Of a stretch of DNA of 39,974 nucleotides, positions 27,889 through 39,667 are shown piece by piece (positions within the stretch are counted from its first letter, which is position 1; every line of letters begins with the position of its first letter). The notes under the pieces were generated by a model, which was not told the DNA's origin, did no database searches, and saw only the letters and a list, made by a program, of their open reading frames with translations. The DNA is taken from positions 53,293 to 93,266 of the forward strand of contig MAGS01000088.1 of assembly GCA_001717005.1 (NCBI GenBank). The letters are read 5' to 3'. Position numbers and translations under genes: made by a program. Source of the DNA: Candidatus Methanomethylicus mesodigestus (lineage in GTDB: Archaea; Thermoproteota; Methanomethylicia; Methanomethylicales; Methanomethylicaceae).

Positions 27889-30081
27889 TTGCATAACAAA
27901 ACCTGTTTATTAACTCTGTTTTTGCCTGCCTTGACATTACTGCTAATATCTGCAGCATCCGTGCCTGGGGTCTCCGCGGCGACCACCCATGATGCGATCG
28001 CCATAAACGGCAACTCCGGCTTCACTTCGGCTAACGGCGTCGTCTCCGGCACCGGAACCGACTTATACCCGTACATCATCGAGGGCTGGAGCATCAGCGA
28101 TCTCTCGTCATCATGCATAACCATCCGGAACACGGACGCCCACTTCATAATCAGGGACTGCGTGCTGGAGTTGGCAGGCATTGGTCCTCACATTACTTTG
28201 GACAACGTCACCAATGGAAGGATTGAAGGGAACGCCATCTCAAACAATGGCAACGGCATCTCCCTCTCATCATCCTCCTCCAACACAATCACCAACAACA
28301 CCTTCTACGGCGACGGCATCTCCCTCTCATCATCCTCCTCCAACACAATCACCAACAACACCTTCTACAGCAACGGCATCTACCTCTCATCATCCTCCTC
28401 CAACGTCATCTCCGGCAACACCATCTCCTGCACCGCCCTCGGCATCTCCCTCTCATCCTCCTCCAACAGCAACACAATCACCAACAACACCGTCACCAAC
28501 GCCCTCTTCGACATCATCATCGCCAACTCCAACAACAACGTCATCTCCGGCAACACCGTCACCAACGCCAGCAGCAACGGCATCCGCATCTACTCCTCCT
28601 CAGATAACGAGGTCACGTGGAACGCGCTCCTGAACAACTCCATCAACGCCTACGACGCCACCGACTCCTCCTCTTGGGACTTCAACCTGTACTCGGACTA
28701 CACCGGGCCGGACAATAACAATGACGGGATAGGCGACATCCCCTACAACATAACTGGCGGCTCAAGACAAGATCCGCACCCCATAGTGCTCCGCCCACCT
28801 GCACCCGACATCACGTCGTTCTCGCCTGCCAACGCCTCAGTCGTACCCGGCACCGGCACAATAACTGCGGAGTATTCCAGTTCCTCAGCCTCCATTAATG
28901 CCTCCGCATGCCTCCTGATCGTCAACAGCATAGACGTGACCGCATCGGCGTCCTTCGGGACAAGCGGCATGTCTTACTCTTACTCGCTCCCCTCGGGGGC
29001 ATGCACTGTTGCCCTGATGGTGGCCGACGCCTCCGGCTCCACGTGGTGCAACTGGTCCTTCACCGTCGATGCGACACCGCCGGAGGTCCAGATAGTAACC
29101 CCTGCCAATGCTACATACGCTGATGGCAATGTGCCGATCAACGTCTCGGCATCTGATGCCATGGCAGGGATGGGTATAGTCCTCGCCGAGGTCGACGGCA
29201 CTTACAACGTGACCTTGGTGCTCCAAGGAAGCTTCTACGTCAACGACACCCTCAGCCTCCCCGACGGCCACCACCTCCTCAGGATCTTCGCCAACGACTC
29301 GCTCGGCAACATGAACTCCACCGTCTCGGTCTGGTTCACCGTTGATACGACGCCGCCAGGTGTTGTAATTGTCTCCCCCGCAAACACTACCTACGCCTAC
29401 TCCAACGTCCCCGTCAACGTGTCCGTTTCAGACCTGATCTCTCCCGTGGTGTCCGTCCTCGCCGAGGTCGACTCGTCCTACAACCTGACCCTTGTGTTGC
29501 AGGATGCCTTCTACGTCAACGACACCCTCAGCCTCCCCGACGGCCACCACGTAGTCAGGATATATGCGATTGACAGCGTGGGCAACGCCAACTCCAGCCA
29601 GTATGTCTGGTTCACGGTCGACACCACACCCCCCGAGGTCACAATCATATCGCCTGCCAACACCACTTACCCGTACACGCCGGTCGTCAATGCCTCCGTG
29701 GCCGATGCGCTCTCCGGAGTGGGCTCGGTCCTCGCCGAGGTCGACGGCACTTACAACCTCACCCTCGTGCTCCAGGGCGACCACTACTACGTCAACGATA
29801 CTATGCTGCTCGAGGACGGCATGCACCAGCTCAGGATCTTCGTGAATGATACCGTAGGCAACTCGAACAGCAGCTCCGCAGTCTGGTTCACCGTCGACAC
29901 GACCCCGCCTGAGGTCGTGATCATCTCCCCGGCCAACGCATCCTACGCCGTGCCATCGATAGCCATCAACGCGTCCGTGATAGACGCGACATCGCAGTTG
30001 GCCCTCGTCCTGGCCGAGGTCGATGGTGCTTACAACCTCACCCTCGACGAGGTCCCGCTGGTGATGATGCAGTTGCTATGA
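27889..30081 (+). CDS. Surface protein, NosD-like beta-helix and Ig-like repeats, N-terminal part
   Basis: A 730-residue frame starting at TTG 27889 (GGTGATGATGA just upstream). A signal peptide is clear: basic start MHNKT, a hydrophobic core (LLTLFLPALTLLLISAA), and cleavage near VSA-A. Residues about 50-280 are NosD/parallel beta-helix repeats rich in NTITNNT, SGNTI and SSSSSN turns. From about 300 come Ig-like domains, each with a DTTPPEV...SPANTTY start and a LAEVDG.YN.TLVL core. Many NxS/T sequons suggest N-glycosylation. The frame ends at an in-frame TGA (30079-30081) inside an anomalous 44-base segment; the same frame continues to 32271. It is almost certainly one gene in its functional form. 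Confidence 0.8.
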   Translation: MHNKTCLLTLFLPALTLLLISAASVPGVSAATTHDAIAINGNSGFTSANGVVSGTGTDLYPYIIEGWSISDLSSSCITIRNTDAHFIIRDCVLELAGIGPHITLDNVTNGRIEGNAISNNGNGISLSSSSSNTITNNTFYGDGISLSSSSSNTITNNTFYSNGIYLSSSSSNVISGNTISCTALGISLSSSSNSNTITNNTVTNALFDIIIANSNNNVISGNTVTNASSNGIRIYSSSDNEVTWNALLNNSINAYDATDSSSWDFNLYSDYTGPDNNNDGIGDIPYNITGGSRQDPHPIVLRPPAPDITSFSPANASVVPGTGTITAEYSSSSASINASACLLIVNSIDVTASASFGTSGMSYSYSLPSGACTVALMVADASGSTWCNWSFTVDATPPEVQIVTPANATYADGNVPINVSASDAMAGMGIVLAEVDGTYNVTLVLQGSFYVNDTLSLPDGHHLLRIFANDSLGNMNSTVSVWFTVDTTPPGVVIVSPANTTYAYSNVPVNVSVSDLISPVVSVLAEVDSSYNLTLVLQDAFYVNDTLSLPDGHHVVRIYAIDSVGNANSSQYVWFTVDTTPPEVTIISPANTTYPYTPVVNASVADALSGVGSVLAEVDGTYNLTLVLQGDHYYVNDTMLLEDGMHQLRIFVNDTVGNSNSSSAVWFTVDTTPPEVVIISPANASYAVPSIAINASVIDATSQLALVLAEVDGAYNLTLDEVPLVMMQLL
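28261..28440 (+). repeat. 60-bp tandem repeats in the beta-helix region
   Basis: Copies at 28261-28320 and 28321-28380 differ at only three bases, and a third diverged copy follows at 28381. Each encodes one turn of the beta-helix (SSSSSNTITNNTFY). Such near-identity suggests recent duplication or slippage. Confidence 0.85.
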
Positions 30082-30179
30082 TACGACGAGGAGGACGGCC
30101 ACCACCTCCTCAGGATCTTCGCCAACGACTCGCTCGGCAACATGAACTCCACCGTCTCGGTCTGGTTCACCGTTGATAC
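29263..30179 (+). repeat. 86-bp perfect direct repeat within the Ig-like domains
   Basis: Bases 29263-29348 and 30094-30179 are identical over 86 positions, encoding DGHHLLRIFANDSLGNMNST and onward. The second copy begins four bases after the anomalous 44-base segment. Recent gene conversion or duplication is the simplest reading. Confidence 0.88.
30047..30090 (+). other. 44-nt same-direction complement of a neighbouring repeat
   Basis: Read left to right, each base of 30047-30090 is the Watson-Crick complement of the matching base of 29768-29811 (44 of 44). The order is not reversed, so it is not an inversion. Complementing it back restores codons for VLQGDHYYVNDTMLL, exactly the repeat expected here, and removes the TGA at 30079. 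The flanking codons on both sides are normal. Confidence 0.9.
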
Positions 30180-32271
30180 CACACCCCCCGAGGTCACCAT
30201 CGCCGCCCCTGAGGCCAGGGCCTACGCATCGCCCGTGGCCCAGATATCCGTCCTCGCGGCAGACCTCTACTCCGGCATATCCGTTGCACTCGCCGAGGTT
30301 GACTCCCTCTACAACGTCACCCTCTCCTTCAACGGGAGCCACTACGTCGGCGAGTCGCTGGCGCTCCCCGACGGCCTCCACACGATAAGGGTCTTCGCCA
30401 ACGACACCATGGGCAACATGAATGACACAGAGTCCGTGACATTCAACATCGACACTACCCTGCCCGTGCTCTCCAACCTCATCCCGCAGAACGGCTCCTT
30501 CACGAACTGGGCAAACCAGATGGTCTACCTCAACTACTGCGACAACAACACCGGCGTGGACCTCGGCGGCATCAGGCTTCTCGTCGACGGCATCGAAGTG
30601 ACCGGCGACGCCATGATATACCCTGACTACCTCATGCAGATCCAGGCCTCCGCCCTCCCCGAGGGTGTGCACACGATAGCCGTCCACGTCCCGGACGCGG
30701 TCGGCAACACCGCCACCGCCGAATGGAACTTCACCGTCGACACCGAAGCGCCGGTAATCACAGTCGTGGCGCCTGCAGGCGGCTCATACACCGGCAGCCT
30801 TTCCGAGGTCGCAGCGTCCTACTCGGACGGCGGCTCTGGCATAGGCCTTGCATCCGTCAGGATCTCCGTCGACGGCGTTGACGTAACCTCAGGCGCCTCG
30901 GTCACGCCGGCCGGCATAACCTACGCGCCAGCATCGCCCATCACAGACGGCACGCACACCGTCACCGTCACCGTCAGCGACAACGCCGGCAACACCGCCA
31001 CCGCTGCCTGGTCATTCTACGTGGACACCGAGGGGCCAGAGCTCATTGCATTCGTGCCGGGCGGCATAATCATGCCCTCCCCGACCTTCGGGGTCTGGCT
31101 CGCGTTCATGGACGGCGTATCTGGCGTGAACGCATCCAGCGCCGCGATGACCGTGGACGGCGCCCCGGTCGCCTTCGTTACTACCAGCAACCCGTCTGGC
31201 ACCTTCTCCTTCTCCTATACTGGCACCTTCGCAGACGGCACGCACACCGCCTCGGTGACTGTCAGCGACAACGCCGGCAACACCGCCACCGCCTCGATCG
31301 CGTTCAGCGTGGACACAAGTGCGCCCGCGATCACCGGCATGTCGCCACCCGACGGCTCGCTCGCAGTGTTCGGGTCGCCCACGATAGGCGCCCAGTTCGT
31401 CAGCTGGAGCGGCATCGACGAATCATCCGTGGTGATCAGGGTCGACGGGACCGACGTCACGGCATCCGCGGCCGTCGCTGCGTCCGGATTCACGCTCTCG
31501 ATGCCCCTCTCCGACGGCATGCACGCGGTCTACGTGGAGGTCAGCAACATATTCGGCAAAGCCGCGTCCGCGTCGTGGTCATTCACCGTCGACACCACTG
31601 CCCCGCAGATAACCGGCATGTCGCCAGCCAGCGGCGCATTCACAAACAACAGCCGCCCGACGATCTCGGCATCATTCTCCGACGCCATATCCGGCATCAA
31701 CACAACGTCAGTCCGGCTCCTCATCAACGGGACCGACGCCACCCACCTCGCTACGGTTACTGCGTCAGGCATAACCTATGCGCCCGCAACAGCGCTCCCT
31801 GACGGGATAGCAGCAGTCACCGTCACCGTCAGCGACAACGCCGGCAACACCGCCGCCGCCACCGCCAACTGGACAATCGACACCAAGCCGCCTACGGCCC
31901 CGACCTCGGCAACGACCAACGGCTCGACCGTCACGGCAGGAACCTGGCAGTTCAGCGCATCATTCTCAGGGGTTGGTCCCCTACCAGGCTCAGTCCGCCT
32001 CTTCATCGACGGCGTTGACGTAACCTCAGGCGCCCCGGTCACGCAGACGGGCATCGCCTACAACGCAACCCTCCCGGCAGGCAACCACACCATAACACTC
32101 GTCATCACCGACCCCTCGGGCAACACTGCATCCACGACCTGGGCAGTCGCCGCAGAAGCGCAACCACAGGGCACAACCGACGCTATCAATCCTTACCTCA
32201 TCATAGCAGTGGTTATCGTGTGCGCCTTTGCGCTCCTGATCTTCATCCTCGCCTACAGGCGTAAGAAGTAG
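30142..32271 (+). CDS. Surface protein, C-terminal part with Ig-like repeats and membrane anchor
   Basis: This is the same reading frame as the upstream part, open from just after the TGA at 30081; ATG 30142 is the first methionine but lies inside a repeat and is unlikely to be a real start. It has about seven further Ig-like domains with DTTAPQITGMSPASG-type starts and VTVSDNAGNTA endings. One hydrophobic segment near the end (LIIAVVIVCAFALLIFILAY) is followed by RRKK, a type I anchor. With the signal peptide upstream, the intact product would be about 1,460 residues, secreted and held to the membrane: a candidate cell-surface or adhesion protein. Confidence 0.8.
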   Translation: MNSTVSVWFTVDTTPPEVTIAAPEARAYASPVAQISVLAADLYSGISVALAEVDSLYNVTLSFNGSHYVGESLALPDGLHTIRVFANDTMGNMNDTESVTFNIDTTLPVLSNLIPQNGSFTNWANQMVYLNYCDNNTGVDLGGIRLLVDGIEVTGDAMIYPDYLMQIQASALPEGVHTIAVHVPDAVGNTATAEWNFTVDTEAPVITVVAPAGGSYTGSLSEVAASYSDGGSGIGLASVRISVDGVDVTSGASVTPAGITYAPASPITDGTHTVTVTVSDNAGNTATAAWSFYVDTEGPELIAFVPGGIIMPSPTFGVWLAFMDGVSGVNASSAAMTVDGAPVAFVTTSNPSGTFSFSYTGTFADGTHTASVTVSDNAGNTATASIAFSVDTSAPAITGMSPPDGSLAVFGSPTIGAQFVSWSGIDESSVVIRVDGTDVTASAAVAASGFTLSMPLSDGMHAVYVEVSNIFGKAASASWSFTVDTTAPQITGMSPASGAFTNNSRPTISASFSDAISGINTTSVRLLINGTDATHLATVTASGITYAPATALPDGIAAVTVTVSDNAGNTAAATANWTIDTKPPTAPTSATTNGSTVTAGTWQFSASFSGVGPLPGSVRLFIDGVDVTSGAPVTQTGIAYNATLPAGNHTITLVITDPSGNTASTTWAVAAEAQPQGTTDAINPYLIIAVVIVCAFALLIFILAYRRKK

Positions 32272-39647: not shown

Positions 39648-39667
39648 CGGCGCGCCTAGGCGCGCCG
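39648..39667. terminator. 20-nt perfect palindrome between convergent genes
   Basis: The 20 bases from 39648 to 39667 equal their own reverse complement. They lie right after one stop codon and 14 bases before the end of the gene on the other strand. A hairpin here could serve as a two-way terminator. No T tract follows on the plus strand. Confidence 0.45.

Follow-up and report, generated by a model that had tools for sequence, protein, structure and literature searches.

The gene and its repeat units

The window (the whole stretch of 39,974 nt analysed here) corresponds to C87:53293-93266 of a draft metagenome bin of the genus Candidatus Methanomethylicus (88 contigs, 1.43 Mb, 89.6% complete), and it contains a surface-protein gene that is stored in interrupted form (Table 1). 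The N-terminal part of the encoded protein is a NosD/right-handed beta-helix, which is followed by Ig-like repeats (Big_13, Big_7), and the C-terminal end consists of a hydrophobic membrane segment and then RRKK. The frame that opens at 27889 runs for 1460 codons and has a single stop, a TGA, that splits the gene into ORFs of 730 aa and 709 aa. A related gene (36% identity) in another genome (G003, contig C190) is open throughout. Within the beta-helix part, an exact 56-nt direct repeat with a spacing of 60 nt lies at 28253-28368, and shorter further copies of it extend to about 28560.

Unit 4 of the Ig-like repeats differs in composition between its two halves. Its first half is clearly diverged from its neighbours, while nothing in 30030-30179 is unique to unit 4: if a 44-nt block in this part is complemented, all 150 nt duplicate unit 3 or unit 1 exactly. 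The longest exact repeat of the gene is the 86-nt copy of unit 1, which begins 3 nt after the block, so that the block sits at the edge of a repeat whose length suffices to break an assembly graph built from short reads. Next to the block, 17 nt on its left and 9 nt on its right match unit 3 as they stand, in normal orientation, and these matches include a GAG codon that is present in unit 3 and missing from unit 1. In such a stretch of copies, a short-read assembler or gap closer has to pick a path through the repeats, and since unit 4 in its right half repeats unit 1 exactly, the true sequence of the organism here is uncertain. That natural gene conversion made the unit copies, with only the complementing being artificial, is also compatible with the data; under either origin of the copies, path choice or gene conversion, the 44 nt as stored are spurious.

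Table 1. Coordinates of the features discussed (window positions unless a contig is named)
Feature	Position	Strand	Basis or remark
Interrupted surface-protein gene	27889..32271	+	frame, domain matches
Five Ig-like repeat units, each about 92 aa	29071..30450	+	unit comparison
Counterpart of the block in repeat unit 3	29768..29811	+	same register, 279 nt upstream of block
Repeat unit 4, carrier of the block	29902-30177	+	unit comparison
70-nt exact copy of unit 3 (29751-29820) after complementing	30030..30099	+	17 nt + 44 nt + 9 nt
Complemented block	30047..30090	+	same-direction complement of 29768-29811; not regarded as true organism sequence
In-frame TGA	30079..30081	+	within complemented block; sole stop of the 1460-codon frame
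86-nt exact direct repeat of unit 1 (29263-29348)	30094..30179	+	starts 3 nt after block
Gaps with flanking exact duplications of 135, 118, 30, 22, 20 nt	C81:38048, C38:926, C33:22986, C24:98117, C11:8614		
C87 5′ end versus C27	C87 1-2400, C27 1-2860		reverse-complement identity; related surface-protein gene

An unreversed complement within unit 4

The block in question (ACGAGGTCCCGCTGGTGATGATGCAGTTGCTATGATACGACGAG) is the base-by-base complement, read in the same direction, of its counterpart in the preceding repeat unit. The relation holds at 44 of 44 positions and does not extend by a single nucleotide beyond either boundary, and the A<->T + C<->G exchange is bijective across the whole block. 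This is what a sequence-only reading had reported, and the comparison bears it out, also in the whole-genome copy, where contig C87 carries the identical 44 letters. The pair is the sole unreversed-complement match of at least 16 nt in the window, and when 1,358,617 bases of the same assembly were compared, the runner-up measured 21 nt over all of them and 16 nt among pairs no more than 3 kb apart. By a naive estimate, chance would give about 3e-15 matches of this type for a 44-mer.

Because DNA strands are antiparallel, copying, recombination and inversion give direct or reverse-complement sequence and never the complement alone, and a block that agrees at every position as complement and not as reverse complement cannot arise by antiparallel templated copying. 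Taken untransformed, reversed or reverse-complemented, the block finds at best 50-55% identity elsewhere in the gene and does no better than chance (random 44-mers under complement gave a mean of 51% identity). For the reverse complement, which inversion or template switching would leave, the best value in the gene is 55%, in agreement with the earlier statement that it lacks a match. An inversion or a reversed copy is ruled out by these values.

Complementing the block replaces DEVPLVMMQLL*YDE by the peptide VLQGDHYYVNDTMLL and so removes the TGA that splits the gene, as had been claimed, and the flanks on both sides of the block share one reading frame. The further claim that this restores the peptide expected at this point in the repeat is right in one respect, in that the exact unit 3 peptide is obtained, and goes too far in another, as the right half of unit 4 copies unit 1. 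The TGA lies inside the block, and the earlier suggestion that the organism may lack this stop is the reading with the best support: most likely both the TGA and the split into two ORFs are absent from the organism, in which the surface-protein gene is probably intact.

Join faults elsewhere in the assembly

Along the contigs there are 40 single-N joins and 26 N runs of greater length, and masking may account for some of the latter. Several of the gaps are flanked by exact duplications (Table 1), as if overlapping contigs had been joined by Ns. A run of 44 C at C81:50360-50403, the only homopolymer of such kind in the assembly, lies four bases from a 148-N gap and is a second artefact at the level of the data; curiously, it matches the complemented block in length. 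The 5′ end of contig C87 shares exact reverse-complement identity over 924, 255 and 185 nt with contig C27, and this duplication is a redundant or mis-scaffolded contig end. A single N at C87:53292 immediately precedes the first base of the window, which hence begins at a scaffold join. No complement relation over 10 nt was found among the gap flanks of the assembly.

Documented faults of metagenome assemblies include mistakes in local repeats and scaffold joins that received Ns even though the flanks overlap (PMC7111523), and the duplications beside the gaps are of the latter type. The block resembles them in its setting, a multi-repeat protein gene in a scaffolded draft bin whose own assembly has Ns between overlapping flanks. 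The errors on record, however, comprise consensus that lacks support, an incorrect number of repeats, duplicated overlaps and flipped segments, and no unreversed complement was found described among them.

Origin of the block

The block is very probably a fault in the assembled data at a repeat join rather than a feature of the DNA of the organism. Several findings favor this reading: the block is unique in the assembly, it lies at the edge of the 86-nt repeat, there are independent join faults elsewhere, none of the searched relatives has a match over the block, and the related gene of G003 is open. A scaffolding, gap-closing or consensus step would have had to cross a collapsed internal repeat, in which the exact copy of unit 1 abuts the apparent 70-nt copy of unit 3, and may in doing so have written 44 letters of the unit-3 path complemented without reversal. 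Such a course would involve a join at the site of the block, which itself has no N or visible join, and an error in strand handling that produced the complementing. We are aware of no assembler bug on record whose output is a complement without reversal. The length of 44 might reflect an overlap of k-1 with k = 45, which stays a guess, as no other observation points to this number and the contig ends, examined for the k-mer of the assembler, have no consistent overlap length. Gap filling with FinishM appears in papers on other archaeal metagenome genomes. The sequence-only reading had likewise set inversion aside in favor of a change at the level of the data, which is the best-supported view, although it falls short of proof; the stored block is probably an artefact.

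An artefact could also have entered later, if the record was edited after assembly, whether by hand curation, by file editing or as a planted test sequence, and the 44 letters were complemented in place. The clean boundaries, the perfect identity and the single instance in 1.36 Mb would all agree with this, and the unit 3 flanks of 17 and 9 nt in normal orientation are what an in-place change should leave. The whole-genome copy, however, has the same letters, which rules out a block planted in the window copy alone, and a location directly beside the 86-nt repeat favors a cause in assembly over a random edit. Editing of the record is therefore regarded as unlikely.

If the block were real, a biological account would be that a polymerase made a parallel-sense complement over 44 nt by the A<->T + C<->G exchange, such that some cells at least would carry a surface protein truncated by the stop. 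H. Seligmann has claimed exactly this exchange rule, with abrupt switches, for records of both DNA and RNA under the term swinger sequences, and describes those in DNA only under this rule and abrupt boundaries for part-swinger RNAs (PMC4942731). The block shares with these reports the letter-by-letter unreversed complement, the abrupt boundaries and the normal sequence on both sides (PMC4942731, PMC7027195), and hence the statement that a real block would be without precedent was too strong, as contested reports with the same exchange exist (PMC4942731). The claims, however, come essentially from this one author, who states that nobody else describes sequences as swinger (PMC4942731), and they mainly concern mitochondrial and rRNA sequences and transcripts, mostly of more than 100 nt and with more than 90% similarity, whereas the present case has 44 nt and 100% identity, lies in an archaeal repeat gene and is known from an assembly alone. 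The phenomenon is contested and accepted enzymology for it is lacking. Swinger sequences are widely suspected to be artefacts, and the block is the type of record that searches for them would pick up. One case from a draft metagenome bin, in a region of collapsed repeats where artefacts are to be expected, is poor evidence for the idea, and an origin by swinger replication is considered highly improbable.

Even less credence is given to the view that at least two ordinary events (inversion, template switching, point mutation) together mimic a complement, or that the block derives from an unrelated sequence. Repeats often undergo template switching and inversion, and phase-variation invertible segments and template-switch mutations are similar to the present case in being short local rearrangements in repeats that alter a surface-protein gene. 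Such events, however, yield direct or reverse-complement copies, and the reverse complement that invertible segments and template switches leave was tested for the block and is absent; its best matches in the gene in these orientations, or reversed, are at the chance level given above. An unrelated source is opposed by the listed repeat matches of at least 20 nt in the assembly, which include the block only through its complement, and by the searched relatives and viral contigs, in which no match to the block was found.

As a fault in the data, the block is of small importance in itself, and it makes the stop at 30079-30081 and the two-ORF annotation unreliable. Screens for unreversed-complement blocks could reveal a type of assembly error that escapes ordinary checks. 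A genuine block would conflict with antiparallel templated synthesis and give the contested swinger class a very clean example.

Searches for recurrence gave no further case. No second block of at least 22 nt was found in the 1.36 Mb of the same assembly, by a self-comparison that sees only cases in repeats, and no unreversed-complement block of at least 18 nt in 0.29 Mb of Candidatus Methanomethylicus oleisabuli V3 (G001), a comparison that misses single-copy cases. V3 belongs to the same genus as the window according to the kinship table, and the preprotein translocase SecY encoded in the window shares 92% identity with its V3 counterpart and 73-77% with those of other Methanomethylicota. 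With no second block in the assembly or in the V3 portion, a systematic software bug is not demonstrated. The top hits of a codon-model scan of low power for complemented segments in unique genes were unconvincing, and the known site was not among the hits listed. A search of the contigs of other genomes for the flank pattern, from which the records of the same genome were possibly excluded, gave no match either. Elsewhere in the window, a perfect 20-nt palindrome (CGGCGCGCCTAGGCGCGCCG) lies at 39648-39667, directly after the last ORF.
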